A DNA stretch of 36,010 bases from contig JAFGFW010000184.1 in assembly GCA_016930875.1 (NCBI GenBank), forward strand, positions 1 through 36,010. The letters are read 5' to 3'. The notes under the pieces are model-generated. The model did no database searches and was not told the origin of the DNA. It saw nothing but the letters and a program-made list of their open reading frames with translations. This DNA is from Deltaproteobacteria bacterium. Its GTDB lineage: Bacteria; Desulfobacterota; Desulfobacteria; Desulfobacterales; C00003060. This document shows, in pieces, positions 20,601 through 33,643 of this stretch; positions within the stretch are counted from its first letter, which is position 1; the number at the start of each line of letters is the position of its first letter. The position numbers and the translations under genes were made by a program.

Positions 20601-20674
20601 ATATATTAATATTGATCAGGCATGAAGCCTGTCGCGATTTAGACCAGATTTTTTTCGCATCTGTAGAAACTGAA

Positions 20675-20727
20675 GCCACGAAGGCCATCTTTCTCTGAAA
20701 AGGAAAAGGTAACTCGTGGTTTTTTTG
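20675..20727 (+). promoter_or_regulatory. Conserved structured RNA element, copy A (attenuator-like)
   Basis: The outer stem CCACGA/TCGTGG encloses a conserved AAGGC segment and a variable inner hairpin, and is followed by T7. It shares the GCCACGAAGGC...CTCGTGG-T7 layout with the copies at 28343, 29167 and 33514. No + strand gene lies upstream for 660 bases, so it is not simply a terminator of a preceding gene. It probably sits in the 5' leader of the trmO transcript and could be a riboswitch or attenuator, or the end of a small RNA. No known riboswitch class was recognised. Confidence 0.6.
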
Positions 20728-20807
20728 TTTTTTTGGCTTGGACGAGCGAAAAGGCCCTGCGAGCGGCTGTTCGGACTATCAAACATCATTTGTTTAAAAG
20801 GGGCCTT

Positions 20808-20873
20808 ATGCCTGAAACGACTCTGAAGATCTCTCCGATCTATCGGCTTGACCTGCTTCGTATGGTGGCATAA
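20808..20873 (+). CDS. Possible 21-residue leader peptide
   Basis: A short frame (MPETTLKISPIYRLDLLRMVA) lies between RNA element A and the trmO-like gene, preceded by AAAAGGGG four bases before its ATG. It ends 22 bases before the trmO start. It could be a leader peptide or a small protein. There is no family match that I recognise, so the call rests only on position and the ribosome-site-like sequence. Confidence 0.25.
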   Translation: MPETTLKISPIYRLDLLRMVA

Positions 20874-20895
20874 TTCATACCAGAGAGCATACATT

Positions 20896-21381
20896 ATGAA
20901 TGAAATAAAGTATGAGCCAATTGGAATCATTCATTCTCCGTTCAAAGAACCCCAGGGAACCCCAATACAACCGGCAGGCGCCAAGGGTATCGATGGAAGG
21001 GTTGAGGTGTTCCCGGAATATGCCGAGGGCCTAAAAGACGTTGAAGGGTTTTCTCATATTTTCTTGATATACCACTTTCACTTGTCCAAAAAGACCTCAT
21101 TGAAAGCGAAGCCATTCATGGATTGCAAAGCACGCGGGGTCTTTGCAATGCGAGGCCCGAGCAGGCCGAACCCCATAGGGATCTCAGTGGTGCGTCTTGT
21201 CAGGATTGAAGGCAACATACTGCACATTCAAGATGTAGATATTGTAGATGGAACGCCCCTTTTGGATATCAAGCCGTATGTGCCGAAATTCGACATAAGA
21301 GAAGTAGAGAAAATAGGATGGCTTGAGGAAAACGTGCGCAAGCTTTCAACATCAAAGGATGATGGAAGGTTCGTAGAATGA
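20896..21381 (+). CDS. trmO: TsaA/TrmO family protein (putative tRNA t6A37 methyltransferase)
   Basis: 161 residues, a SAM-dependent methyltransferase of the YaeB/TrmO beta-barrel family. Conserved parts: YEPIGIIHSPF at the start, DVEGFSHIFLIYHFH, the signature RGPSRPNPIGIS, and LDIKPYVPKFD. E. coli TrmO methylates t6A at position 37 of tRNA-Thr. It lacks the C-terminal extension of E. coli TrmO, as do many short homologues whose substrates are untested. The start at 20896 fits the family; the ribosome site is weak. The gene end overlaps the longest form of the next frame as ATGA. Confidence 0.85.
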   Translation: MNEIKYEPIGIIHSPFKEPQGTPIQPAGAKGIDGRVEVFPEYAEGLKDVEGFSHIFLIYHFHLSKKTSLKAKPFMDCKARGVFAMRGPSRPNPIGISVVRLVRIEGNILHIQDVDIVDGTPLLDIKPYVPKFDIREVEKIGWLEENVRKLSTSKDDGRFVE

Positions 21382-21398
21382 AAAAGGAGAAGACTCAC

Positions 21399-21644
21399 AT
21401 GGCAGAGAAAAACGAACTTGTTCTTGACGACTTCACGGATGTTACGGACTACATTTTCAAGGCTCTCGAAAAAATCAACACCCTCTTTGCCTCCTCATCT
21501 CTCACTGAAGAAGAGAAGTCCAAGCTGGGAAGGCTCGGCCGGTCAATACACTCGGCAAGTCACGAGATGGATCACCTTTTTCTCTCCTTGGAATCAGTTC
21601 CAAACGAACTCAAAAAGGCGCTCCAAGCACATTACGGCCACTAG
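21399..21644 (+). CDS. Small helical protein of unknown function
   Basis: 81 residues, acidic and predicted all-helical from its sequence, with no signal peptide, membrane segment or Cys motif. AAGGAG lies nine bases before ATG 21399, which is preferred over an ATG at 21378 that overlaps the trmO stop codon. It is likely co-transcribed with the trmO-like gene. I do not recognise a family. Confidence 0.55.
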   Translation: MAEKNELVLDDFTDVTDYIFKALEKINTLFASSSLTEEEKSKLGRLGRSIHSASHEMDHLFLSLESVPNELKKALQAHYGH

Positions 21645-21687
21645 ATCAAAGCTTCGCCTCCACAAGACTCCATCAGACCTTATGAGG

Positions 21688-22158
21688 TCATGTCTCGAGC
21701 CTCGCTCTGCCTTTCTTCCCCCTCCACCAAAACAGAACCCCACAACCCCCAAAGATAATACAAACCCCCATCAAAGCCTTTTCGTATCTGCAAAAAGTGC
21801 TTTTGCTTGTTTCTCCGGGTTGCTCCTTTTCTCGCCACACCAGTTGCTCGTTGACCGGCACGTTGACGTCAAGCCGATGCCCCATCTCATCGTCCAGCAA
21901 GACTTTCCAATCACCCGGGACATCAGGAAAGAAACAGAAACGGCCGTTCCTATCTGTCCTGCCGGTCTGAAAAGCTAGCTTAGCGCCGGGCGCCGAAATC
22001 CTCACCTTGGCGTAACTCATGGCTTCGTCCGTGTCATACCGGGCAGTCACCACCAGGCCACCCTCTCTCACCGCACCCTTAACGCCATGAGCGTAAAGTG
22101 GCATCCGGCCTATGAAGACCATAAGTACAAGCAAAATAATCATCCCACTATATTTCAC
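21688..22158 (-). CDS. NikL-like membrane-anchored periplasmic protein
   Basis: 156 residues. A signal-type N-terminus (KYSGMIILLVLMVFIGRMPLYA) ends just before HGVKG. An extracytoplasmic beta domain of the carboxypeptidase-regulatory or DUF4198 kind follows (YAKVRISAPG, GRTDRNGRFCFFPDVPGDWKV), then a C-terminal membrane helix (ALMGVCIIFGGCGVLFWW) and a positive tail. This layout resembles NikL-type accessory proteins of nickel/cobalt ECF transporters. GTG 22158 is preferred since AGGAG lies upstream and translation begins right at the signal peptide; ATG 22143 is an alternative. It overlaps the permease end by 11 bases. Metal specificity is inferred. Confidence 0.65.
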   Translation of the reverse strand: MKYSGMIILLVLMVFIGRMPLYAHGVKGAVREGGLVVTARYDTDEAMSYAKVRISAPGAKLAFQTGRTDRNGRFCFFPDVPGDWKVLLDDEMGHRLDVNVPVNEQLVWREKEQPGETSKSTFCRYEKALMGVCIIFGGCGVLFWWRGKKGRARLET

Positions 22159-23539
22159 GGTCTTGTCTTCTCCTGCTACCAAAATAGAGATAGGCCAACA
22201 TACCTAAACCGATTGTTCCCAACCCGAACAGAGACGTAACGGGTCTGCTCCTGATGCAGAAATAGATAATCCACAAATTTCCCAGGATAAAAAGCAAAGG
22301 GGTTAGTGGATATCCGACCGTCCCGTAGTCTCTAACCAAGGAAGGTTGCCTTATCCTGAGTATTATCATTCCCAGGACCGTCAGCATTGCACACAATGAA
22401 AGGGTAAAGCCGATATACAAAAGCAGCTTGCCAAATGATGCCGTCAGGGCCATCATAATGGCAATCCCTGCCTGCAGTAGGATGGCATGTGCGGGCGTCC
22501 TGCGAAGGCTGTTGACCTTGCCAAAAATCTCAAAAAACATGCCGTCTTTTGCCATGGCGTAATAGACCCTCGGCCCGGCCATAATCATAGCGCTTAGAAC
22601 CGACAAAAGGCTTATGGCAATGGCCCCACTGAAATACTTGCTGATATGCTCCCCAAACAAGGAAACCGCAGATTTTGCCCCGACTTCAAGGACGCCGCTC
22701 ATCTCCTTTGCAGGCAGTGCGTAAATGAAAACAACGTTTAAGACCAAATAGAGACATATGACCAGAAGCGTGCCCGTAAAGAGAGCCAGTGGTATATTTC
22801 TACTCGGCCTCTTGATCTCGCCTCCAAGGTAAGCAGCAGCATTCCATCCACTATAAGCAAATGAGACAAATATGAGCGATATGGCAAACTTGTCTCGAAA
22901 TACGGAGTTCATCTCTAACCCTCTGGAAAAATTGGATGTTGTGCCATGCCCCACAAAAAGTCCAGCCACAACAAAGGCAACGATGAGGCCCACTTTAAAC
23001 AATGTCAACCCGTTTTGCACCCTAGTGCCGAGGAAAAGACTGTGATAATGAATCAGCGAAAAGGTGATGATGATAGCTGTTGCCAACATAGTCATTGGTG
23101 AGACTGTAAGAATAGCCACCCCAAAAAAGGGAATGCTAAAGGTAAATTCCGGGATAAGAGAGGTTGGCAACGCGCGGAAAAAATACGTTGCAAAGGCAAT
23201 GGAAGCTGCTGCGATAGGGGCGGAAAATCCCACGACCAAAGAGATCCAACCGGAAAGGAAGCCCATGCATTTCCCAAAGCTCTCCCGCAAAAACACGTAC
23301 TCTCCGCCTGCCCTGGGGAACATGGCCCCCAGTTCCCCGTAGCAAAGGGCCCCGCAGAGGGCAAATATGCCGCCAACAAGCCAGCAGAGAAGCATGGTTT
23401 GAGGATTGCCGAGCTCTTCCATAATGAAACCGGAAGTCGTGAATATTCCAGTTCCCACCATGTTGGCAACCACCAAAACAGTGGCCGAAAAAGGACCGAT
23501 TTCTCTTTTCAGCTCACTATTATTCAACGTATTTTTCAA
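22148..23539 (-). CDS. APC-family amino acid permease
   Basis: 463 residues, about twelve hydrophobic segments. The first helix carries VVANMVGTGIFTTSGF, the typical APC substrate-binding GxGIF motif, followed by GALCYGELGAMFPRAGGEYVFL and later AYSGWNAAAYLGGEIKRPSRNIP. It imports or exchanges amino acids in the inner membrane; the substrate is not clear. It sits between parts of the putative metal uptake cluster and overlaps the NikL-like gene, so it is likely co-transcribed, though a functional link is not obvious. Confidence 0.88.
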   Translation of the reverse strand: MKNTLNNSELKREIGPFSATVLVVANMVGTGIFTTSGFIMEELGNPQTMLLCWLVGGIFALCGALCYGELGAMFPRAGGEYVFLRESFGKCMGFLSGWISLVVGFSAPIAAASIAFATYFFRALPTSLIPEFTFSIPFFGVAILTVSPMTMLATAIIITFSLIHYHSLFLGTRVQNGLTLFKVGLIVAFVVAGLFVGHGTTSNFSRGLEMNSVFRDKFAISLIFVSFAYSGWNAAAYLGGEIKRPSRNIPLALFTGTLLVICLYLVLNVVFIYALPAKEMSGVLEVGAKSAVSLFGEHISKYFSGAIAISLLSVLSAMIMAGPRVYYAMAKDGMFFEIFGKVNSLRRTPAHAILLQAGIAIMMALTASFGKLLLYIGFTLSLCAMLTVLGMIILRIRQPSLVRDYGTVGYPLTPLLFILGNLWIIYFCIRSRPVTSLFGLGTIGLGMLAYLYFGSRRRQDREI

Positions 23540-23729
23540 GGCTGTCTACCGTGAACGGACCCCTTTCATTCATCAAAGATTTGCCTTCGATCCAGGTCAA
23601 GCCGGTACCGAGTGACCAATTTGCGAATATGGAAGAGGCGCTCATGTCGTCCGATGCCATATCCGTATCGACAACAGCCGAGACTTTGCAGGCATGACCC
23701 TGTGCAAGGGATGAAAAAAAGAAAAACAA
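23520..23729 (-). pseudogene. Remnant of an exported nucleoside hydrolase-like gene
   Basis: A 69-codon frame without a good start begins with the end of a signal peptide (FFFFSSLAQGHA) followed by VVDTDMASDDM, which resembles the Asp-rich N-terminal metal site of nucleoside hydrolases. The remaining residues (ending GPFTVDSLEKYVE) do not continue that fold and may be the original 3' end after an internal deletion. It overlaps the permease start. The identification is tentative because only about a dozen residues support it. Confidence 0.3.
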
Positions 23730-23736
23730 TTCCGCA

Positions 23737-23959
23737 CTACTTGAGATTTGCCTCGTGGCGCTTCATAGCCGCCTCATAGGGCTTGCCCTCCAGGAAGCGG
23801 CCAACCAACAACAGACCCATGAATCTTTCCTTTTCTTTAGATAGGCTTTCCCCCATATCAGCTACGGTTCCGCGCGGCTATAGATTGAGAAGGCCAAAGG
23901 CCTGTCGTCAAAACAACCAGGAATGCTATAAATAAAAAAATCCGCCCCTTTTGTTTCAT
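23737..23959 (-). pseudogene. Internally deleted exported tetrapyrrole methylase
   Basis: An ATG at 23959 with AAGGAG upstream starts a signal peptide (MKQKGRIFLFIAFLVVL, ending PSQSIAA). The frame then meets a stop after AARNRS. In another frame, codons up to the stop at 23737 encode GTVADMGESLSKEKERF and MGLLLVGRFLEGKP. These align with the C-terminus of the intact exported methylase at 24936 (DIKAEKENWLGMIIVGRCLAGQP). About 700-800 bases of the middle are missing, with a shifted frame at the junction. This is the scar of a second, once exported, tetrapyrrole methylase next to the first. Confidence 0.6.
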
Positions 23960-24019
23960 GGTGTGTTCTCCTTCTTGCGGTATTCGGCCACGAGATGCAC
24001 GCCGGTCATGACACAATTG

Positions 24020-24781
24020 CTATTTCACCTCAAAGGTCAGGGTGGCACAGTAATAGTACTCGTCACATTCCGCCAGGTCGGGGTAGGGGAGCTTATAGGG
24101 GACCTTCGCCAGCCAAGCGCCTTTCTTAACAAGCTTGATCTTGGCTTCTCCGTCTTTGTTCGTCATGGTTGAGAAGGCATAGGTCTCACTTTGATCCGAA
24201 AACCCAACGTAGGTAGCGTAAAGGTACTCACGGGAAAGGGGTTTCCCTTGGAAAAGGACTTTGACCGGCAGAAGGTCGCCTTCTTTCAGCCTGCCGGGAT
24301 TCTCCAAGAGTACGATCTCAAGGAGATCGTCCGCCTCCTGGCTCACGCCCTGCCTTTGTCCACCGGCACAAATCACCGTTTTTGCCCTCATGTCATAGCT
24401 GACGCACTTGAGTGCATTGTCCAATCCCTTTTTGTTTTGCCGTTTGTACCCGTCCGTGGTCTTGGTATAGACGCCGGAATTGATCTGGGCAAAGATAGGG
24501 TATACGCCCTTTTGCTTGACCGTAAGTTCATATTTGCTCATGGATACCTGCTTGAGGTCCACCGTATGCCCTGAGGGATCCAAGGCATAAACGCGTTTCA
24601 GGATCCCTTCTTTGTTAAGTTCTTCTTTTGGAAAATGATGGCCCCAGTTGATTTCTATCTGAACAGTGTCGCCTATATCAGGGTGATAGTTGTCCGCAAG
24701 GAGCCACAGCATATGGCCCCATGCGCTGGAAGCCGCTGAAACCATGATTAGAAAGCATAGAGCAGTAAACATTTTTTTCAT
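24020..24781 (-). CDS. DUF4198 periplasmic protein (NikK-like)
   Basis: 253 residues with a signal peptide (MKKMFTALCFLIMVSAASSAWG) cleaved right before HMLWLL. The body is beta-rich and matches the DUF4198 pattern: a GDTVQIEINWGHHFP segment, a PVKVLFQGKPL strand, and a late TNKDGEAKIKLVKKGAWL Ig-like part. Such proteins accompany nickel/cobalt uptake systems and TonB loci and are thought to be periplasmic metal-handling factors. Start 24781 has AAGGGG upstream; the longer frame to 24817 has none. It lies between the intact and the deleted methylase genes. Confidence 0.75.
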   Translation of the reverse strand: MKKMFTALCFLIMVSAASSAWGHMLWLLADNYHPDIGDTVQIEINWGHHFPKEELNKEGILKRVYALDPSGHTVDLKQVSMSKYELTVKQKGVYPIFAQINSGVYTKTTDGYKRQNKKGLDNALKCVSYDMRAKTVICAGGQRQGVSQEADDLLEIVLLENPGRLKEGDLLPVKVLFQGKPLSREYLYATYVGFSDQSETYAFSTMTNKDGEAKIKLVKKGAWLAKVPYKLPYPDLAECDEYYYCATLTFEVK

Positions 24782-24935
24782 ATCCCATCCCCTTTCGAGT
24801 GCCAATAAGTAATTCAATATCGCTTTGATAACAATCTAAGTAAAAACCGCAGAAGCCGTCTTTTAAAAGCCAAGAATTGAATTTCTTTCGGCGTCCCACC
24901 ACACGTGGCGCCTCCGTCTTGCTGCGGGCATCCGT

Positions 24936-25853
24936 TCACTGTGACATATGTTTGACCATTCCCCGTTGCGGTTGTCCCGCAAGGCATCGGCCAACGATGA
25001 TCATGCCCAACCAATTTTCCTTTTCGGCCTTGATATCCTCCAAGATGGTATCCAGGGCGCCTTTGACCACCTTCTCCTTTTCCGGGTACCCGGCATTATA
25101 CACCACCGCAACGGGAAGATCGGAAGGGTAGTACTTCTTGAGCCTGGCTATCAGGGTGTCTGCATGCCTAAGGGCCATATAAAAAGCCATCGTGACGGGA
25201 TATTTGGAAAGATCCTTCAATATGGCTTCATCCTCAGGCTTTCCGAACAGAAACATGGGCGCGGTGAGCATGACAAAACGGGTATCATAGGCGGGAATGG
25301 AAGATTTCTTCAACGCCGCCATGGAGGCCTGAAAGCAACCCAGGCCCGGAATGATCTCCACCTCATCCTCTCTGAGCCCTTCTATGACCCTGTGTGAGGG
25401 GCCGAAAACACAGGGGTCGCCGCTATCCAGGAGGGCCACGGTCTTCCCCTGGGCCACTTCATGTCTGATTCTGGCGGCCGTCTCATCCCAGAACCGGATT
25501 CTTTCCTCCACATATTGCTTTTTTTCTTCGGGCCCCAATTTTTCGCGGTCCTGCCAACTATGCTTAAACTTGCCCCGCCAGGGGTTGCCGAGGAGGTTTT
25601 TCCCCTTCAAATACGTGGAAAACCGTTCCAAGGTATCATTGGAGCCGAAGATGACGTCGGCCTTTTGTATACATTCTATGGCCTTGCCCGTGGCATGCTC
25701 CGGCCCTGCCGGACCCGTGCCGATGACGTAACACTTGCCTCGGCTCCCGTGTTCCGGGTGGGCAAGGGCATTTGTAATGGGAAAAAGCAACAGGGCAAAA
25801 AGCGTCAAGGCGCACAGGTTCCCTGTGGCGACAACATTATTTCGGGCTATCAT
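24936..25853 (-). CDS. Exported tetrapyrrole-methylase-fold protein (CbiE-like)
   Basis: 305 residues. Start 25853 has AAGGAG seven bases upstream. Residues 1-31 form a clear signal peptide (hydrophobic LCALTLFALLLFP, cleavage ANALA-HPEHG pattern). The mature part is a SAM-dependent tetrapyrrole (corrin/porphyrin) methylase fold: YVIGTGPAGPEHATGKAI, ADVIFGSNDTLERF, LLDSGDPCVFGP, EVEIIPGLGCFQASMAAL and a GMIIVGRCLAG end. The usual GPGDPE loop reads GPAGPE. These enzymes normally act in the cytoplasm in cobalamin or siroheme synthesis, where SAM is available. An exported member beside a TonB receptor may bind or sense a tetrapyrrole instead of methylating it; that is inference. Confidence 0.82.
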   Translation of the reverse strand: MIARNNVVATGNLCALTLFALLLFPITNALAHPEHGSRGKCYVIGTGPAGPEHATGKAIECIQKADVIFGSNDTLERFSTYLKGKNLLGNPWRGKFKHSWQDREKLGPEEKKQYVEERIRFWDETAARIRHEVAQGKTVALLDSGDPCVFGPSHRVIEGLREDEVEIIPGLGCFQASMAALKKSSIPAYDTRFVMLTAPMFLFGKPEDEAILKDLSKYPVTMAFYMALRHADTLIARLKKYYPSDLPVAVVYNAGYPEKEKVVKGALDTILEDIKAEKENWLGMIIVGRCLAGQPQRGMVKHMSQ

Positions 25854-25897
25854 TCTTAATCTCCTTCCAGCTCTAGAGCCCAATCTCCCCCCTGAGC

Positions 25898-25929
25898 CCT
25901 CCCCCCCCGCCGCAGCGTCGGGGGAGGGG
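25898..25929 (-). other. GC-rich hairpin downstream of the TonB receptor gene
   Basis: CCCTCCCCC and GGGGGAGGG arms pair around a short centre in the 160-base gap between the receptor stop and the methylase start. There is no U-run, so it may act in mRNA stability rather than termination. Nothing else is seen in the gap. Confidence 0.35.
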
Positions 25930-26013
25930 AAGGTGAGGGTCAGGGCAGAATTTCAGCAATCCAATGCACACGGCAACCTGACCCATGTAGCAGGTTCCCT
26001 GCGTGTTTACGGC

Positions 26014-28065
26014 CTAGAAATTCAGTGTTGCATTCATGCCGGCGGTCACCCCGGGCATGTCATAACCGTAATGCAACTGATAATCCTGGTCGGTGACATT
26101 ATTTACGTAACCCTTCAACGTGAACTCGCAATCATGAGGCATCTTGAAGGTGTGCTGGGCGCCCACATCGACAATAATCACGTCATTCATAGTGACGTCC
26201 TCTTGGCTGTAACGCTCCCCTATGTACTTGGCGTTGAGGTTCACCACCCCGTTTTCCCAGAGCTTGTAGTCCAAGCCCATGGTTACCTTGTGACGCGGCT
26301 GATTTTGTAACAGGTAAGAGGTGTTCTCTGTATCCATGGGGTGATTGTCGGCATTCCAGTCCTGGTAGGTGTAGGCCAGATAGCCGCTCAGATCCTGCCT
26401 GAAACTCCTAGTCAGTTCCAGCTCGACACCGTACACAAGCATGTCGATGTTATATACCAGGCTTGACGTGGCGGTTTCGTTGTAGTTGTGTTGCTGGTAG
26501 TCGCTGATGTCCGTGTAATAAAAAGCCGTCCTGAATTTTGTGTCCTTCAGGATTTCCTTGACGCCGCCTATTTCATAGGTCCAAGAAGTCTCTGTTTTAA
26601 ACTCAGAGTTTGCCGTTGCGTATGCTGCGTCGGACCCGGCCCGGGCCCATCTCCAGAGATCTCAGATTCAGGGCATACGCATTTCACGGCTGATGGAGGC
26701 ATAGAGGGACAAGCTGTCGTCCCATACGTAGTCCAGCCGGGCCTTTGGACACCATTCCCGTTCAACCCTCCGGTCCGGATTTCTGGTAATGAATTCATAG
26801 GAATCGGACGCGAATTCATACCAGCGGGTTCCAAAGGTCAACGACATGGCATCGGTGAAGGACCACACGTCTTGAACGAAAAGGGCCGTGATGGCATAAT
26901 AATCTTTATTGTCGGGGGTTCCCTGATTCCGGTAGTCCCCTCCCAGGGAAAAAGAATGATTTGGAACGAGGCTGAAATCCAGATAATCCAGGGCGATGCC
27001 CCCTGTATATTCCTCCTTGTAGTTGGAACTGTCCGTTCCGTTTGCATTGTGCATGTATCTGTCCCGTTTGGACAACTGCTTGTAAATTTGCCCCCGCAAT
27101 TGTCCCATGGGAAGAGGCTGTTCCACAAGTAGGCTCTGGTCGTTTACGGTTTTCTCCCACTGGTTTTTCCCACCGTCGTAGCCCGAAGCTTCGTAGTCGT
27201 GGCTGAACTTGTCCACATCGGAACGCACAATCGGGTAGCTCGGGTCATAGTTTGAATTCGCATCATCGGGATCATTGATCACCGCATATCCGGTGACCGT
27301 ATCCACATGGTCGATCCCGTAGGTCATTGTCCCGCCCGTGGGAAGATAGAGGGAGAAACGGCCGTTTACGTTGTCCGTGTTGTAGTCATTGCCCCGCAAG
27401 TACCCGTCGCCTTCCCTGTGGGCCGCGGCAATGGAGTAGCCGATGGCATTCAAGGCGCCGCCGCTGGCACCGGCACTGTAGCTTTGGCCCCCATAAGGGC
27501 CGAATCCCATTTTCACGCTCCCGCTAGGTGTGGGGTCATCGGTCTTTTTGCCCTTTTTGGTGATAAGATTGACCGCCCCACCCATGGAAAACGGAAAAAG
27601 GAGCGAATGGCTCCCGCGCACGATCTCAATGGTCTCGATCATATCGGCGGGAAGGGTGGTCCAGTCCATCTTGAAATACCCATTGCTCCCGTGAAGCCTC
27701 AAGGGCCTGCCGTCCATAAATATCTGGTAGCGTGACTGGTCCATACCACGGATATAGACCCCTTCATTTTGTGCCGGCGTCACGGAAGAAAAGAGGACAT
27801 TGATTCCAAGCGCGTCACCCAATATGTCCTGCACATTTTCCACCTTGCCGGCCTTTTGGTACTCATCCACATTTATGACGGTTACTTCCGGCGTCACCAC
27901 CATGGATTCATCCTTCAATGGATGATCCCGGACAATGACCTTGTCAAGCCGATAGACTTTTTCGCCCTTCTCTGAATCCGTCTCCTGTGCGGAACTGAAT
28001 GCCGTGACGGATAAGAGAAAGAGGATACCCATCAAGCCGGCAAGGCCGAACCTCAAAAACTTCAT
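26014..28065 (-). CDS. TonB-dependent outer-membrane receptor with two in-frame UGA codons
   Basis: 683 codons in one frame. A signal peptide (MKFLRFGLAGLMGILFLLSV..SSAQ), a TonB-box-like segment (DKVIVRD) and a plug domain (GVYIRGMDQSRYQIFMDG, ETIEIVRGSHSLLFPFSMGG) lead into a 22-strand-type barrel ending in Phe (NATLNF). It is of BtuB/CirA type and imports a ligand using TonB-ExbBD energy. The only defects are UGA codons 466 (26668-26670) and 468 (26662-26664), in SREMRMP-UGA-Ile-UGA-DLWRWARAGS, where receptors usually have a Ser/Thr-x-x stretch. Both flanks remain in frame with no other stop or shift. Start has AAAGGAG upstream. It is either a selenocysteine-type recoding site or a very young pseudogene. 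Confidence 0.6.
26632..26648 (-). promoter_or_regulatory. Hairpin after the two UGA codons (possible bacterial SECIS)
   Basis: Thirteen bases after the second UGA, GGGCCCG pairs with CGGGTCC (7 bp, one G-U) around a GGC loop. The loop lies about 20 bases from the second and 26 from the first UGA, within the range described for bacterial SECIS elements, and has a G at its first positions. GC-rich sequence makes chance hairpins common, so this is only suggestive. Confidence 0.25.
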
Positions 28066-28230
28066 TGTCGCTCTCCTTTCTATACCGAGAAAAAATTGTC
28101 TGATCTGTTTTTCTCAGAGATTGGTCTCGGGGCGGGCAGCCGCCATATTTGAGGAGATGGCCTTGACGGCGGGAATGATTCGGAAGTATAAATGCCTGCG
28201 AAGCATTCCCTCCACCCGAGGGGGCTTCAC

Positions 28231-28275
28231 GGGGAAGGCAGCTTGCTGCTTTTGCCGGTCGCGGCTGCCTTCCCC
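28231..28275 (-). promoter_or_regulatory. 12-bp perfect inverted repeat in the TonB receptor leader
   Basis: GGGGAAGGCAGC (28231-28242) and GCTGCCTTCCCC (28264-28275) form a perfect 12-bp stem with a 21-base loop, between RNA element B and the receptor start. No U-run follows. It could be part of a larger leader structure together with element B. The rest of 28066-28546 holds element B and a candidate promoter but no gene. Confidence 0.45.
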
Positions 28276-28342
28276 ACCCTTTCCTGTCTCTGTTTTTCAA
28301 TTGCCGTTTTTTTATCATCTCCTCGCTCACCTTGATTCGCAC

Positions 28343-28395
28343 AAAAAAAGCCACGAGGACATCTCATCCGTTCTCGGATGACAGCCTTCGTGGCC
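28343..28395 (-). promoter_or_regulatory. Conserved structured RNA element, copy B (attenuator-like)
   Basis: On the - strand: outer stem GCCACGA/TCGTGGC, conserved AAGGCTGTC, inner hairpin ATCCG/CGGAT, conserved GATGTCC, then T7. It lies about 280 bases before the TonB receptor start and about 70 bases after a candidate promoter start point. The inner stem differs in sequence from those of the other copies yet still pairs. Confidence 0.65.
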
Positions 28396-28469
28396 GGAAT
28401 TGCGTTCTTTGGTTCTAGATTGACTCCGGGCAGCTTCTACTGCCCTGTTTCAAGTTGTTTGTGTTTATT

Positions 28470-28498
28470 TAGGTAGAGGATTTTGTCACAACTGTCAA
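28470..28498 (-). promoter_or_regulatory. Candidate promoter of the TonB receptor transcript
   Basis: On the - strand, TTGACA (28493-28498) is followed after 17 bases by TACCTA (28470-28475). The -35 box is perfect and the -10 is poor. It would place element B within the 5' leader. Confidence 0.3.
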
Positions 28499-28546
28499 CA
28501 TCAAATAGCCCCCTATCCTTTTTACTTCCCTATCAGGTTGCGATAA

Positions 28547-29053
28547 TCATTGAAAGGCCCTCCAGCAAAACAGACCGACCAACGCCGAATCGCCCATCCA
28601 GAAGTGATCGCCTCGGTGAACGAACTTTTTCCCGATCTCATCCCGCTCCCAGGTATCCGCTCGACGGCCTCTATTTGCGGACCAATGCTCCAAGGCTTCG
28701 TCCTGGCTGTTGTAGGCAAAAGCGCTTCCCACCTGCTCGACCCTGGCATATTCCATGTAGTAATTGCCGGATCGCACGGGAAGCCTTATCTCAGGGGAGA
28801 AAAACTCGGTGACGATCACCACCCGTTTTGGCCTTGCAGCAAATACTTTCGCCAGGGCAGGGACAAAACCTATCTGGGTGAGATGAAGGCTGTTGCAAGC
28901 CAAAACGAGGTCGTAGCCCCCCAAGGCTTTGCACGGAACCGCCTCCCATCTTCTCCTGTCAATATGCATGCCATGAGGGCGGTCTTTTTCGGCTTTTCTT
29001 CTCAGCAGATGCCTCATGGCCTTTTCCATGATTAACTCTGATTCGATAAGCAA
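28547..29053 (-). pseudogene. 5'-truncated class I SAM methyltransferase
   Basis: 168 codons read LIESELIMEKAMRHL, then YDLVLACNSLHLTQIGF, KVFAARPKRVVIVTEFF. These match the middle and end of a class I SAM-dependent methyltransferase. The N-terminal part with the glycine-rich SAM site is missing. Upstream DNA changes at once into GC-rich repeat sequence (29060-29165, with the CGCCGTAGC and GGCGAAGGCGA words also seen near 20100). An ATG at 29029 could start a shorter product. It appears inactivated by repeat insertion or deletion. Confidence 0.6.
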
Positions 29054-29166
29054 GCCGGCAGACCGGCCAAACCGGCAAAGCCCACCCCCCTTCGCTCTAA
29101 GGAGCTCCCGCCTTCGCTGAAGCTACGGCGCGGCAAGACGGAGCGGTTCGCCTTCCGGCGAAGGCG

Positions 29167-29213
29167 AAAAAAAAGCCACGAATCCCACCTTCAGGTGGAC
29201 AGCCTTCGTGGCC
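29167..29213 (-). promoter_or_regulatory. Conserved structured RNA element, copy C
   Basis: On the - strand: GCCACGA/TCGTGGC outer stem, AAGGCTGTC, inner hairpin CCACCT/AGGTGG, short GGAT, then T8. It is the most compact copy. It lies upstream of the truncated methyltransferase and downstream of a sigma-54-type site, about 360 bases after the tonB stop. Confidence 0.6.
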
Positions 29214-29278
29214 TACACGTTATGTCTATGGGTCTGGTTTTGGGGACCCTTCAGGGGTCCATTAAGACTTTGGTATGC

Positions 29279-29294
29279 AGCAAGTAATGTGCCA
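29279..29294 (-). promoter_or_regulatory. Sigma-54 type -24/-12 promoter site
   Basis: On the - strand TGGCACATTACTTGCT has the invariant GG and GC ten bases apart and matches the consensus TGGCAC-N5-TTGC(A/T). It points toward RNA element C and the truncated methyltransferase. No enhancer-binding protein gene is in the window. A short hairpin GGACCC/GGGTCC follows near 29246-29262. Confidence 0.45.
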
Positions 29295-29459
29295 ACCTAA
29301 GTTATAATCGATATGTGCTATCTTCTTAAAGGGTTAAGATGTGAAGAGGAAAAAACGCTAGGCAAAACTTTTCATAAAAAACATCCCAGTAAGAAAACAA
29401 ATGCCCATTTTTGGCATCTTTTTAACCATATTGTTTCCAGTCGGCGCCATGCTGCCGTT

Positions 29460-29565
29460 CGCCGGTTTAATCCGCCGGAGGCGGACAAGGGGTTAATTCC
29501 CCGCCGCTTGCGGCGTCACAATGTTTTTGTAGATACCCCGTTGCTCTGCGGCGGGGTAGTTCATT
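29460..29565 (-). repeat. Multi-hairpin palindromic element, second copy type
   Basis: Read on the - strand it starts AATGAACTA, then CCCCG...CGGGGTATC, then CGCCGCAAGCGGCG, GGGGAATTAACCCC and TCCGCCTCCGGCGGA, i.e. four hairpins in a row. The first 34 bases align with 20047-20079 on the + strand. It lies just after the tonB stop codon. No transposase gene is seen. The rest of 29214-29570 contains only the sigma-54 site and the tonB end. Confidence 0.55.
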
Positions 29566-29570
29566 AGAAA

Positions 29571-30263
29571 CTAGGTGAGTTCAAAGACGATGGTGATTTC
29601 CAGGGGAATCTCCCCTTCAAAAAAACGTCGCGGGGGTTTGGAAAAGGGGACTGCGGCCTGCACGGCCTGCACGGCAGCCGCATCGAGGTCCTTGTTTCTC
29701 GAACGTTTTGTCACTTCTACTTCCCGCACGCCTCCTTCGGGCGTGATGATAAAACGTATGGTCACACGACCCTCAATGTATCTCACCCTGGCCAAGTCGG
29801 GATATTTCTTGTGTCTCTCTATCTTGAGCCTTACCATCTCGAGATAATTCCGGGCGGTCAGAAAACCTCCTCCGGTCTCCTCTAACAGTGCACCGGAGCT
29901 CCAATCAGCAACTTGAAGGCCCGGCGTGTCCGGTATGGCCGCAATGCCGATGGCTTCCATCAGACTTTCCGAAAAATTCTCTTCAGGCGGTTCCATTTTA
30001 ATGGGTTTCAAGCGCGGTATCTGCCGCTGCGTCACGTTGAGTCTTTTGAATTCTTGAACCTGAGGCGCCTTGGGCCTGTAACGGGGCCTTGGGATATCCC
30101 TTGCCGCCGGCTTGGATATATCGTGCATGGTCAGTTCGATGTAGGTCAAGACGTTGGAGTTGTAGAGGCCCGCGACATGCAGGAAGATAATCGCGTGAAT
30201 AGCCAGAGAAACGGCGATAAGACCGCAAAAGAGCCAATTTGGTTTGCTATTTTTTGTAGTCAT
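29571..30263 (-). CDS. tonB: TonB energy-transducing protein
   Basis: 230 residues. A short cytoplasmic start, one N-terminal membrane anchor (WLFCGLIAVSLAIHAIIFLH), a Pro/Arg-rich periplasmic linker (DIPRPRYRPKAPQ, RQIPRLKPIKMEPP), and a C-terminal TonB domain (YLEMVRLKIERHKKYPDLAR, GRVTIRFIITPEGGVREVEV, PFSKPPRRFFEGEIPLEITIVFEL). It links ExbBD to outer-membrane receptors. Start 30263 (MTTKNSKPNW) is chosen because it precedes the anchor; the longer frame to 30317 is encoded by a GTCTGTGTGGG-type repeat tract. No strong ribosome site is visible. It is downstream of exbD with a 190-base gap. Confidence 0.88.
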   Translation of the reverse strand: MTTKNSKPNWLFCGLIAVSLAIHAIIFLHVAGLYNSNVLTYIELTMHDISKPAARDIPRPRYRPKAPQVQEFKRLNVTQRQIPRLKPIKMEPPEENFSESLMEAIGIAAIPDTPGLQVADWSSGALLEETGGGFLTARNYLEMVRLKIERHKKYPDLARVRYIEGRVTIRFIITPEGGVREVEVTKRSRNKDLDAAAVQAVQAAVPFSKPPRRFFEGEIPLEITIVFELT

Positions 30264-30457
30264 TGGCCACAGACCCACACAGACGCACACGGACAAATCG
30301 GTCGCCGATGCGTCCACCGATTCATGTCAGGCCTTCCGGCCATATTCATGAGTTCCTTACGCCCTCCGTTACGAGGTAATCTCCCTAAAAACATGTCGAA
30401 TTCCTTGACGATGATTTGAATTCCAGAAGCGGTAGCTCTTTCTGTGCGGGTCCGTGA

Positions 30458-30865
30458 CTAAAAATCTTTTTCCGTTGCCAGGCACAGCCTTCCGGCCCCG
30501 GCGGCCTTGGCAATGTCCATGACCTTGACCGCCTTGTTCAGAATCACTTCCCGGTCCGCCCGAACCACGACCAGTTCATCTTGCCTGGAAGCGATCTTGT
30601 CCTTGATGCGATCAAAGAGCCTGGCTGGAGGAACCTCCTCGGCGCCGAGAAACGCTCGGCCTTGTCGGTCTACGTAGACCGTAATGACTTCCTCGGTCTG
30701 AGGCGCCGCGGCCTTGGCCTGAGGCAACTTGATCTTGATCCCTTCGTCTACTATGAAGTTGGTGGTAAGTAAAAAATAGATCAAAAGCAGAAAGACGATA
30801 TCAATCAGCGATGTCAAAGGTACCTGGACCTGAAGGCGTTTTCTTCGTCTGGGATGGACAAGCAT
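30458..30865 (-). CDS. exbD: ExbD/TolR biopolymer transport protein
   Basis: 135 residues. It has a basic N-terminus, one membrane helix carrying the conserved Asp of the ExbD/TolR proton channel (VPLTSLIDIVFLLLIYFLL), and a periplasmic domain (IKLPQAKAA, ITVYVDRQGRAFL, VVVRADREV). It works with ExbB to energise TonB. It starts 18 bases after exbB, so they are co-transcribed. Confidence 0.93.
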   Translation of the reverse strand: MLVHPRRRKRLQVQVPLTSLIDIVFLLLIYFLLTTNFIVDEGIKIKLPQAKAAAPQTEEVITVYVDRQGRAFLGAEEVPPARLFDRIKDKIASRQDELVVVRADREVILNKAVKVMDIAKAAGAGRLCLATEKDF

Positions 30866-30883
30866 ATAAACCCCCTTGAGCCG

Positions 30884-31546
30884 TCAATGTTTATGGGCAT
30901 GGGTATGAGGATGCGTATGGGGCTCTCCGGTGTGGCCGTGTATCCGATTACCTACGGTTTTCAAGAACACCACAGTGCCGTCCTGAAGCTGGGTCTCGTA
31001 TCGGTCCACACGAGATAACAAATAACTGTGCGCCACCATGGTGGGCAGGGCCACGGCAAGGCCCATGGCCGTGGTGAGCATGGCCTCCCATATGCCTCCG
31101 GCAAGGACTGCCGCATTCACTTTACCGCCCATCTCCTGGATGACCATGAAGGCCTTGATCATGCCCAACACGGTCCCCAGCAAACCGAGAAGCGGGGCGA
31201 TATTCCCAATGGTTGCCAGGGCTTGGAGGTAGCGGGAAAGTTCCCGCGTTTCCTCTTCAGTGGCATGCACAATGACCGTTTCCAAGGTCTCCCGGTCCTG
31301 GTCTTTCACCTCTATGGCATGGGAAAGGACGCGCCCCATAGGGGAGTCGTCTGCGCTGGCCAGATCATAAGCCTTCTGATCTTCGCCGTGCTTGAGGTGC
31401 CTGGCCACGGTTTCAATCAATCCATAGCCCCGTATCTTGACCCGGCTCAGGCGTATGAGTCGTTCAAGAAAGATGGCAAGCGCTATCACAGAACAAAACA
31501 AAATGGGCGCCACGAGGACGCCCCCCTTTGCAAGAAAATCGAACAT
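30884..31546 (-). CDS. exbB: ExbB/TolQ proton-channel protein with His-rich tail
   Basis: 220 residues with three membrane segments: GGVLVAPILFCSVIALAIFLE, the conserved region IGNIAPLLGLLGTVLGMIKAF, and TTAMGLAVALPTMVAHSY. These are typical of ExbB/TolQ/MotA proteins that form the proton channel with ExbD. GGAGG lies five bases before the ATG. The last 21 residues hold eight His (HGHTGEPHTHPHTHAHKH), an unusual extension that could bind a transition metal on the cytoplasmic side. This agrees with a metal uptake role for the cluster. Confidence 0.92.
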   Translation of the reverse strand: MFDFLAKGGVLVAPILFCSVIALAIFLERLIRLSRVKIRGYGLIETVARHLKHGEDQKAYDLASADDSPMGRVLSHAIEVKDQDRETLETVIVHATEEETRELSRYLQALATIGNIAPLLGLLGTVLGMIKAFMVIQEMGGKVNAAVLAGGIWEAMLTTAMGLAVALPTMVAHSYLLSRVDRYETQLQDGTVVFLKTVGNRIHGHTGEPHTHPHTHAHKH

Positions 31547-31717
31547 TTTTTCCTCCGAAAATTAAAGTTAGCCGGTTATGCCGGTTGGGCCCGTTGAGTC
31601 GGCTTAGCCTGGTCATCAGTCATTGGCCGCTGCTTATTCCTTTGATAGAGCTTTCAGCCTTCAGCGCTCAGGATTCAGGAAAATGGGTCCGACCTATTCC
31701 TATTAACTGTTCACTGT

Positions 31718-33493
31718 TCACCGATCACTCTTTCCCGCTTTCTCGCCTGCCATTTCCTCTATATCCGGCTCACCGTCAAAGTTCAGGTCCTTTGACCGCT
31801 TAAGCAGGGCCTCTGCCTTGTCGTATTCTTCCCAGAGGTCGGGCTTGCCGTCGCCGTTTGTATCTTCCTCCACGCTCCTAAGGCTTCCCTTGTAATAGCA
31901 ATACCAGGTATCGATCTTGCCGTCCGTGTTGTTGTCTTTTTCCGCCCGGATCGCCTCTTCTGCGTCATTATAGAACCATGTGATGGTAAAACAACCGGCC
32001 CCCTCTTCGTCCTCTTCGCTCTTCGTGAGTTTTCCCTGTGTGCTGTAATGTTCTCTCAGGTCAAGTTTGCCGTCTGCGTTTTCGTCAATTTCTTTCAACC
32101 TCAAGATGTCCTCTTTGTAGCAATAACGCCCTTCCGGCCTCCCGTCTTGATCCGTATCCAGTTCCATGACCATGGACCACGGAGCCTGGTTAAACAACTG
32201 GGTAATCTCAAAACAACCGTCGCCGTCTTGGTCCCGGATGAGCCGCTGTTTGGTCCCCTTATTATAATAGACCTTGAGATCCACCTTCCCGTTTGCGTCA
32301 TCGTCTCTTTCCGCCCGCAGCAGTTCACCGTTTCGGTAGTACTCCCAGGCATCGGTCTTGCCGTTGAAATCCGTGTCGCTTTCGATCCGTTCCTTTTCTC
32401 CCCCGGCATTGAAAAAAATCCTCACGTCCGCCTTTCCGTCTCTGTTGCTGTCCTGGATTTGCAGTGAAATTTTTCCTTCTTTGTAAAGCGTCACGGTCTC
32501 GTTATACCCATCTCCCTCGCCATCATGGATGACCTTTACGGGTACGCCGTCACGGCAAATCCTGATTCGATCAATACGCCCCGTGTGCCTGGTGTCCTCC
32601 TCCATTTTTTCTGCATACCCATTGTCATCAAAATGGATGAACACGTCTTTCTTTCCGTCGAAGTTGGTGTCCTTTTCCTGATAGGATAGGATGCCGTCCT
32701 TAAAACGGGTCAAGATATCGAAACGACCGTCGCTGTTCGCGTCCTTGTCCTGCTTAACCGGTTTCCCATCTTCAAACAGGGTGATGATCTCAAAGGCGCC
32801 GTTTTGGTCCAGGTCCTTACTTTGTTTGTAAATTTCTCCCTTGCGATAAAGACGCACGACCTCCATGTTGCCGTCTCCGTCCAGATCGTGGCGGCTCTCC
32901 TTGGGAAGACCGTCTTCGTCGTAAAAGGTGATCCTTTCGATCTTTCCGTTCCCGTCGTCATCAGTGCTTCTTTCAACAGGTTTGTCATCCCGAAAGATCT
33001 GCCGGACATTCACCTTGCCATCCCCGTCTGTATCCTTGGTGGAACGGAACAGTTTTCCGTCCTTTAAATAGTAAACCGAATCCAGTTTGCCGTCTGCCGT
33101 AGTGTCCCTTTGCATCTTCAAAGGACGCTCCTCAGAATCAAACTCAATGATTTGATCGAGAAGGCCGGTCTCAGTCGAGACCCGTTTGTGTTGTATCCTT
33201 TTTCCGTCTCGGAAATAATCCCACGCGTCCACCTTCCGGTCATCATTGGTGTCTCTTTCGACCCTTAAAACATGCTCACCCACATAATACTGGAACCGGT
33301 CCATGATCTCATCGGCATTGCTGTCGATCTCCAGCCTAATGAGTTTGCCCTTCTTGTCAAAGTGGGTTATTTGGTCAATCTTTCCGTCCTCATCGGTATC
33401 GCGCTCGACAATGTCCTCCTTGGCCAACGCCCATGGAGGCAGTGCCGGGACGACACAGGTGATCACAATCAGACAACAGATAAAGCAGATCAT
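31718..33493 (-). CDS. Secreted protein of about 23 Asp-rich (EF-hand/TSP3-like) repeats
   Basis: 591 residues. A signal peptide (FICCLIVITCVVPALPPWALA) is followed by about 23 tandem units of roughly 24 residues, most starting D-x-[DN]-x-[DN]-G-[KR]-x-[DE] (DTDGDGKVN, DTNFDGKKD, DTNGDGKPD) followed by a beta-strand pair (WDYFRDGKRI). The Asp pattern resembles Ca-binding loops of thrombospondin type 3 or dockerin repeats, so it is probably a calcium-bound rod or solenoid outside the cytoplasm. Some units are degenerate (STETGLLDQ). It is first in line with exbB-exbD-tonB; the 170-base gap to exbB holds only low-complexity intergenic repeats. RNA element D sits 20 bases before its start. The function is unknown. 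Confidence 0.85.
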   Translation of the reverse strand: MICFICCLIVITCVVPALPPWALAKEDIVERDTDEDGKIDQITHFDKKGKLIRLEIDSNADEIMDRFQYYVGEHVLRVERDTNDDRKVDAWDYFRDGKRIQHKRVSTETGLLDQIIEFDSEERPLKMQRDTTADGKLDSVYYLKDGKLFRSTKDTDGDGKVNVRQIFRDDKPVERSTDDDGNGKIERITFYDEDGLPKESRHDLDGDGNMEVVRLYRKGEIYKQSKDLDQNGAFEIITLFEDGKPVKQDKDANSDGRFDILTRFKDGILSYQEKDTNFDGKKDVFIHFDDNGYAEKMEEDTRHTGRIDRIRICRDGVPVKVIHDGEGDGYNETVTLYKEGKISLQIQDSNRDGKADVRIFFNAGGEKERIESDTDFNGKTDAWEYYRNGELLRAERDDDANGKVDLKVYYNKGTKQRLIRDQDGDGCFEITQLFNQAPWSMVMELDTDQDGRPEGRYCYKEDILRLKEIDENADGKLDLREHYSTQGKLTKSEEDEEGAGCFTITWFYNDAEEAIRAEKDNNTDGKIDTWYCYYKGSLRSVEEDTNGDGKPDLWEEYDKAEALLKRSKDLNFDGEPDIEEMAGEKAGKSDR

Positions 33494-33513
33494 AGGAAAT
33501 CCCCGACAACCAC

Positions 33514-33564
33514 AAAAAAAGCCGGGTAGACATCACAGGCTTCTTGCCCGTCAGCCTTCCTGGC
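33514..33564 (-). promoter_or_regulatory. Conserved structured RNA element, copy D (attenuator-like)
   Basis: On the - strand: outer stem GCCaGG/CCcGGC, conserved GAAGGCTGAC, inner hairpin ACGGGC/GCCTGT (one G-U), conserved GATGTC, then T7. The U-run ends only about 20 bases before the start codon of the repeat protein, and no - strand gene lies upstream. This position strongly suggests control of the gene in cis. The stem bases differ from those of copies A-C but pair. Confidence 0.65.
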
Positions 33565-33643
33565 TTTCTGTTTCTGCTCTAAAAATTAGGTTGTGTGGAA
33601 ACTAAGCTCTTTTATGAAAAGCGCACCTTCTGGATGCATTTAT

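Follow-up and report, generated by a model that had tools for sequence, protein, structure and literature searches.

Comparison with known twin-hairpin and metal-responsive systems

The ANTAR-target RNAs found in the eut, nasF and amiE leaders follow a consensus in which both hairpins carry hexaloops with A at position 1 and G at position 4 (PMC3369931, PMC8934654), and the targets in the Enterococcus faecalis eut operon have linkers of 5-12 nt. Guanidine-II (mini-ykkC) riboswitches are also built of two hairpins, with short conserved loops and variable stems and linker, and NiCo riboswitches are associated with export genes. In other delta-proteobacteria nikMQO and nikK are targets of NikR, a DNA-binding repressor with the site GTGTTAC-N13/14-GTAACAC (Rodionov 2004, PMC545781).

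The element described here occurs in four copies (A-D) in the window, i.e. the whole 36,010-nucleotide stretch of DNA that was analysed, and resembles each of these systems in part. As in ANTAR targets, it lies in leaders, consists of two small hairpins (P0 and PA) with a shared loop motif, and has a second hairpin that includes the 5' arm of a terminator, so that the two structures exclude each other. It differs in that its loops are NGAA or ANGAA in P0 and ANGAA in PA rather than A1-G4 hexaloops, its linkers are longer (24-88 against 5-12 nt), the genes under its predicted control concern nickel and cobalt whereas ANTAR RNAs serve mainly nitrogen-related ones, and an ANTAR protein is not encoded in every genome that carries it. 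The guanidine-II layout of short conserved loops on variable stems is shared, but the loop sequence is another one, there is no Rfam match, and the element's second hairpin sits within a terminator. The NiCo (czcD) and cobalamin riboswitches share metal-related cis-regulation and partly overlapping gene themes with the element but adopt larger junction folds, and again no Rfam match was found at the element. With the NikR regulon it has the same kind of target genes in common.

Predicted terminators of the four window copies

The preliminary description, made from the sequence alone, had placed structured copies at 20675-20727 (+), 28343-28395 (-), 29167-29213 (-) and 33514-33564 (-), and these coordinates and folds were confirmed, with folding z-scores of -2.3, -4.4, -2.7 and -3.8 for copies A-D, respectively. 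Each terminator is laid out as an outer stem P1 (GCCANGA/UCNUGGC), a variable inner hairpin P2 and a U-run. This meets the sequence criterion for an intrinsic terminator, a G+C-rich stem followed by a U-run; termination itself is inferred, without transcript data. The sequence GCCACGAAGGCTGTC is exact in copies B and C and has one mismatch in each of copies A and D. A GAtGTC motif, also claimed for all copies, occurs in B and D alone and is missing from C, while copy A differs in its 3' internal loop and has a weak inner hairpin.

The terminator of copy A (20672..20727, +) lies upstream of trmO (20848..21381, +; PF01980, TIGR00104). Copy B (28342..28397, -) is in the leader of a TonB-dependent receptor of the PUIUD type (26014..28065, -; NF049944), in which two in-frame TGA codons are read as selenocysteine (U466, U468) and which is followed downstream by a tetrapyrrole-methylase-fold gene and a DUF4198 gene (24020..25883, -). 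The terminator and U-run of copy C (29168..29215, -) precede a 168-residue open reading frame that has no Pfam match. Copy D (33513..33567, -) lies 20 nt ahead of a gene for an Asp-repeat protein (31718..33493, -) with sub-threshold DUF6802 and Lsa25.6 matches; exbB, exbD and tonB occupy 29571..31546 (-).

Two small hairpins share one loop

The unit proved larger than first described: the upstream hairpin P0 had been overlooked, and the full order is P0, PA and then the terminator. The invariant strand GCCANGAAGGY can itself close into a mini-hairpin PA, GCC(ANGAA)GGY, which at the same time supplies the terminator's 5' arm; through this overlap, PA and terminator are mutually exclusive. PA reads GCC(ACGAA)GGC in copies A (20675..20685, +), B (28385..28395, -) and C (29203..29213, -), and GCC(AGGAA)GGC in copy D (33554..33564, -), where the G at loop position 2 is matched by a compensating C in P1. 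This variable loop position covaries generally: in 18/18 cases where N is a base other than C, its partner in the terminator has changed as well. In folds of copies A, B and D, truncated transcripts form PA and full transcripts form the terminator; for copy C, PA does not form in the truncated-transcript fold. PA by itself is weak (3-5 bp).

P0, whose loop matches that of PA, is a hairpin in which an (A)NGAA loop caps a variable stem; it lies tens of bases 5' of the terminator and precedes all four window copies: CAGGC(ATGAA)GCCTG in A (20617..20631, +), GGGCAGT(AGAA)GCTGCCC in B (28428..28445, -), GGACCC(CTGAA)GGGTCC in C (29244..29260, -) and TGCATC(CAGAA)GGTGCG in D (33622..33638, -). Among 114 loci picked by terminator sequence alone, 52 have a strict P0 (stem >= 5), the corresponding counts being 0.16 for shuffled sequences and 1.95 for random windows; the loops are of the types AGAA, AAGAA, TGAA, ATGAA, CGAA, ACGAA and AGGAA. 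When hairpins were anchored by loop sequence alone, stem positions 2-6 were paired in 82-89% compared with 39-44% in the background, and all pair types occur. The linker from P0 to PA spans 24-88 nt without conserved sequence (one outlier at 6). Sequence analysis thus shows the architecture, the overlap-based mutual exclusion and the pairing of the variable stems; the sequence conservation of P1 in the broad set is there by construction because those loci were chosen by exact pattern.

A widespread family heading nickel and cobalt genes

A covariance-model search, which the preliminary description had proposed, was run with a model trained on 12 sequences: the four copies in the window, a fifth from the same genome and seven from other genomes. 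At E <= 0.1 every one of the 22 genomes of the genus gave matches (eight in the source genome), and at E <= 0.001 so did 187 of the order's 291 genomes, although the weak hits among the latter may include ordinary terminators. Copy number is low, at roughly 1-8 per genome, and the family reaches into several phyla, where it accompanies the same gene set. Cultured carriers of copies include Desulfobacter vibrioformis DSM 8776, Desulfoluna butyratoxydans MSL71 and strain NaphS2. None of the 4227 models of Rfam 15, including NiCo, guanidine-II and cobalamin, gave a gathering-score match over the element, in agreement with the preliminary description, which did not recognise it as a named class. 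All four copies belong to this widespread family, which has no entry in Rfam 15. The open-access literature searched yielded no description of this RNA; the closest RNA survey (PMC11109978) does not mention nickel, cobalt or TonB, and in an attenuator survey (PMC2965389) neither nickel, cobalt, TonB nor Desulf gave a match.

In 100/121 cases the element and its downstream gene share a strand, and the upstream gene is divergent in 29 and convergent in 8, the opposite of what gene-end terminators show. The first genes behind the elements (n = 88) include TonB plug (16), DUF4198 (12), CbiM (5), ExbB (4) and FmdE (4), and later genes include CbiM (9), binding-protein permease (6), CbiQ (5), PDGLE (5), Ni_insertion (2) and AIRC (2); a comparable metal-gene enrichment was not found among upstream genes. 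The downstream set as a whole comprises TonB receptors, DUF4198/NikK, CbiM/NikM, ExbB, LarE/LarB/LarC, FmdE and TrmO; trmO, FmdE, porins, a sulfatase and response regulators are targets without an obvious nickel role. Leader position and regulon are thus shown by sequence analysis, and by their downstream gene content the elements head a nickel/cobalt acquisition regulon, the metal signal being inferred. These data support the earlier proposal of a cis-acting attenuator or riboswitch regulon and narrow its "metal-like cluster" to nickel and cobalt acquisition. The outcomes named as refuting that proposal, a known Rfam class or copies that are mainly terminators of unrelated genes or random repeats, did not arise. 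A separate idea, that the hairpin marks the transcript start of a promoter at fixed distance, was rejected as no positioned -10/-35 was present.

Candidate regulators

Very few genomes of the order encode NikR (4/291), no NikR palindrome was found near any of 179 elements, and three of the four NikR genomes lack an element match at the threshold applied. This last count hints that NikR and the element exclude each other, but it rests on only four genomes. ANTAR genes (PF03861) are present in 104/194 genomes, and 48 of the 118 element-carrying genomes (41%) have none, including G006 (96% complete, seven matches) and G026 (98%). ANTAR was rejected as the trans-factor, its association with the element being merely weak (odds ratio 1.9, p 0.05). 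DUF3842 is encoded in 109/118 element-carrying genomes and its gene often has a copy of the element ahead of it. The AlphaFold model (pLDDT 79) weakly resembles Rossmann-like and universal-stress folds (TM <= 0.50) and gives no hint of RNA binding, and no paper on DUF3842 was found in the open-access literature searched. DUF3842 is a possible loop-recognising regulator; its role is untested and no unbiased co-occurrence search lies behind the choice.

Proposed mechanism and alternatives

The reading we consider likely treats every element as an attenuator, a terminator that forms conditionally in the 5' leader of a gene for nickel/cobalt acquisition. P0, with its (A)NGAA loop, would form first in the nascent RNA, followed by PA with the same loop. 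A loop-recognising factor holding both hairpins would keep the 5' arm of the terminator occupied, allowing read-through of the U-run and switching the uptake genes on; unheld, PA would unfold and the much stronger P1-P2 terminator would form over it, stopping transcription. Judged by gene content, the factor is expected to be active when nickel or cobalt is scarce. Termination, antitermination, the direction of control, the metal signal and the protein nature of the factor are inferred only, with no expression or termination data. Against this reading stand the presence of a strict-form P0 in only about half of the copies, the highly variable linker length, which is unlike that of ANTAR RNAs, the weakness of PA alone and its failure to form in the truncated fold of copy C, and the targets without an obvious nickel role.

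In a riboswitch, the two (A)NGAA loops would themselves bind a metal ion or metal-related metabolite without any protein. Guanidine-II shows that riboswitches can be built from short repeated loops with variable stems and linkers, and the family spans several phyla with one gene set. However, long linkers without conserved sequence do not suggest one compact pocket, the natural direction, in which binding would lead via antitermination to import being switched on, is hard to reconcile with the metal itself being the ligand, and no Rfam riboswitch model matches. We regard this alternative, for which ligand binding is undemonstrated, as unlikely. The repeated loops and variable stems and linkers are fitted at least as well by an ANTAR-like, protein-dependent antiterminator.

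Recognition by an actual response-regulator ANTAR protein, as with EutV, NasR or AmiR, has in its favour the same logic of twin hairpins, of which the second overlaps the terminator's 5' arm (PMC3369931, PMC8934654), and the ANTAR genes in over half of the genomes. We nevertheless hold it very improbable, as the tetra- or pentaloops and the linker lengths are unlike those of known ANTAR RNAs and so many element-carrying genomes lack ANTAR. That the copies are ordinary intrinsic terminators or dispersed repeats sharing sequence by chance can be all but ruled out. The hairpin and U-run do have every feature of an intrinsic terminator, and some copies are near-symmetric inverted repeats that match on both strands, but the leader rather than gene-end position, the divergent upstream genes, the coherent metal regulon, the P0 enrichment and the low copy number already contradict it.

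Beyond the attenuator reading, a bolder one, which we judge as likely to be wrong as right, is that the elements belong to an undescribed antitermination system that replaces NikR as the nickel/cobalt regulator throughout this sulfate-reducing order and in further phyla. Its sensor would be a new, non-ANTAR class of loop-recognising factor, with DUF3842 as one candidate, or an RNA that senses directly. If true, this would provide a nickel/cobalt regulon for a large and environmentally important group of anaerobes almost wholly without NikR, and would represent a second, non-ANTAR route to antitermination via twin hairpin loops. The element would then also help to find metal-uptake genes that have gone unrecognised, such as those for selenocysteine-containing TonB receptors and FmdE-type, TrmO-type and DUF3842 proteins.

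RESULTS

The Elements and Their Status in Rfam

The preliminary description had proposed a family of structured RNAs in four copies, and this held, as all four were found: copy A at 20675-20727 (+) in front of trmO, B at 28343-28395 (-) in front of the TonB receptor gene, C at 29167-29213 (-) in front of a 168-aa ORF, and D at 33514-33564 (-) in front of the Asp-repeat gene. Their terminator part folds significantly better than shuffled sequences and consists of P1 (GCCANGA / UCNUGGC), with a U-run after it, and an inner hairpin of variable sequence, P2. Of 114 copies, 32 have an NGAA-type loop as the best one in P2, compared with 1.15 in shuffles. The comparison with Rfam called for in that description was run, and the family is absent from Rfam 15: no family reached the gathering score in the whole window or in eight loci with homologous elements, nor did anything over the elements in 18 loci from several phyla, where the matches (tmRNA, tRNA-Sec, and cobalamin riboswitches) all lay away from them. 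A permissive scan of copy B gave matches at chance level only.

An Upstream Hairpin and a Mini-hairpin within P1

The preliminary description missed an upstream hairpin, P0. Among 114 loci picked by terminator sequence alone, 52 have a strict P0 (C(A)NGAA-G loop, stem of at least 5 pairs, within 100 nt upstream), where shuffles gave 0.16 and random windows drawn from these loci 1.95. The best upstream hairpin carries such a loop in 58 of the 114 (0.6 in shuffles). With this best-hairpin choice the recurrent loops are AGAA (13), AAGAA (11), TGAA (10), ATGAA (8), CGAA (6), ACGAA (5), and AGGAA (4). When the stem is anchored by loop sequence alone, positions 2-6 are paired in 82-89% of cases against a background of 39-44%, with every Watson-Crick pair type represented.

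The sequence GCCANGAAGGY is readable as GCC(ANGAA)GGY, a mini-hairpin, PA, that has the same loop as P0 and occupies the 5' arm of P1. We attribute to this double use both the invariance of the P1 5' strand, whose partner merely keeps pairing, and the placing of its single free base, N, at loop base 2. N and its P1 partner are paired in 183/183 places; C-G in the pattern-selected loci is so by construction, and the places with N other than C are paired in 18/18 cases (U-G 7, G-C 5, U-A 3, A-U 2, G-U 1). Each of the four copies in the window carries both P0 and PA. In folds of transcripts cut before the 3' arm, P0 forms in copies A and B and, shortened, in D, and PA forms in A, B, and D; PA was not seen as the minimum in the truncated-transcript fold of copy C. 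Full transcripts fold as the terminator.

Distribution and Position

We built a covariance model on 12 sequences: the four copies of the window, a fifth copy from this genome, and seven taken from other genomes. At E <= 0.1 it locates 8 sites in this genome, and every one of the 22 genomes of the genus has a match. The search of Desulfobacterota that had been called for gave matches in 187 of the 291 genomes of the order at E <= 0.001, an upper estimate, as weak matches at such distance may include ordinary terminators. The exact pattern (GCCACGAAGG, 18-40 nt, CGTGGCTTTTTT), searched in 84,980 species genomes, returned at least 118 stretches, mostly from Desulfobacterota, with others from Nitrospirota and a few Clostridia. 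Tandem elements or motifs within one leader were seen in the loci L066 (4556 and 4671), L069 (3904 and 3990), and L096 (3700 and 3750) and on contig C14 of this genome (85024 and 85113); these may be stacked attenuators.

Downstream genes in the genus set are mostly co-directional; the gene upstream is divergent at 19 of the 70 elements. In the broad set the next gene is on the same strand in 100/121 cases, often starting 20-60 nt after the U-run with a Shine-Dalgarno sequence, and 29 upstream genes are divergent versus 8 convergent, which is the opposite of the pattern expected from gene-end terminators.

Genes behind the Elements

The first genes (n = 88) include TonB plug (16), DUF4198 (12), class-I methyltransferases (7, with matches to NF043040, corrinoid protein-associated methyltransferase), CbiM (5), ExbB (4), FmdE (4), periplasmic metal-chelate binding (3), and DUF3842 (2). 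Following genes of the same run include CbiM (9), ABC ATPase (7), DUF4198 (6), binding-protein permeases (6), CbiQ (5), PDGLE (5), family-5 binding protein (3), nickel insertion protein (LarC family, 2), and AIRC (LarB family, 2). Judged by eye, LarE-like genes come first in two Clostridia loci (L141 and L189) and TrmO in locus L156. Upstream neighbors showed no comparable enrichment except DUF3842 (4), CbiK (3), and TonB (3), which could be operon neighbors. The established roles of NikMNQO/CbiMQO, NikK/DUF4198 (COG5266), and the Lar proteins indicate nickel and cobalt as the metals concerned (PMC11247825 and PMC545781 also bear on this link). The window carries the same theme, with exbB-exbD-tonB, the TonB receptor, DUF4198, a tetrapyrrole-methylase-fold gene, and trmO. 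The DUF6802-like Asp-repeat gene (31718-33493, -) lies behind an element in six genus-set loci, the window included, and DUF6802 matches make up 5/88 first genes of the broad set; its product is possibly a surface metal-binding member of the regulon.

The TonB receptor (26014-28065, -) is a selenoprotein with two in-frame TGA codons in the motif MRMPUIUDLW (NF049944, PUIUD type), and ordinary ORF calling cuts it short at residue 465. TonB-receptor leaders also hold a second conserved structured RNA, GGGAAGGCAGC...GCUGCCUUCCC-GGUGAAGCCCCCUCGGGGUGAGGGAUGCUUC, 150-193 nt downstream of the attenuator (about 28180-28300, -, in the window; also in loci L015, L016, L041, L116, L118, L119, L123, L144, L153, and L199). 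It has a covarying stem (L118), is not in Rfam, and may be an additional cis-regulatory element.

DISCUSSION

NikR is encoded in only 4/291 genomes of the order, a near absence that leaves room for a different regulator. Three of these (G016, G060, and G078) have neither an element match at threshold nor DUF3842, and the fourth (G286) has one weak match; mutual exclusion is conceivable, four genomes being insufficient for the claim. DUF3842 (PF12953), a highly conserved family of 140 aa with a predicted Rossmann-like fold without close relatives, occurs in 109/118 element-bearing genomes outside the genus (odds ratio 8.8, p 3e-8, genome relatedness uncontrolled) and in 10/14 genomes reached via loci labelled Clostridia, Nitrospirota, and others. 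In some ten loci (L228, L136, L203, L246, L238, L167, L174, L171, L188, and L163), a copy of the motif precedes the gene for DUF3842 by 70-200 nt. We found no paper on the family in the open-access literature searched. Given this co-occurrence and the motif before its own gene, DUF3842 can be counted as a core member of the regulon and, at most, as a candidate for an autoregulated factor.

The element appears to work like the ANTAR-target antiterminators, yet it does not satisfy the loop and linker criteria that define them, and an ANTAR protein is missing from many element-bearing genomes (present in 70/118 outside the genus; odds ratio 1.9). Direct sensing of a ligand by the RNA is not excluded, but the variable linkers speak against a compact aptamer, and we lean toward the inference that a dimeric or repeated protein reads the loops independently. 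Taking together the ANTAR-like working, the failed criteria, and the absence from Rfam, we infer, without termination, binding, or metal-response data, that the element is a tandem-hairpin transcription attenuator, not listed in Rfam and distinct from ANTAR targets.

As such an attenuator, it would be controlled by a factor that binds the (A)NGAA loops and holds PA; PA so held would block P1 and allow read-through into the genes behind it, presumably during metal shortage.
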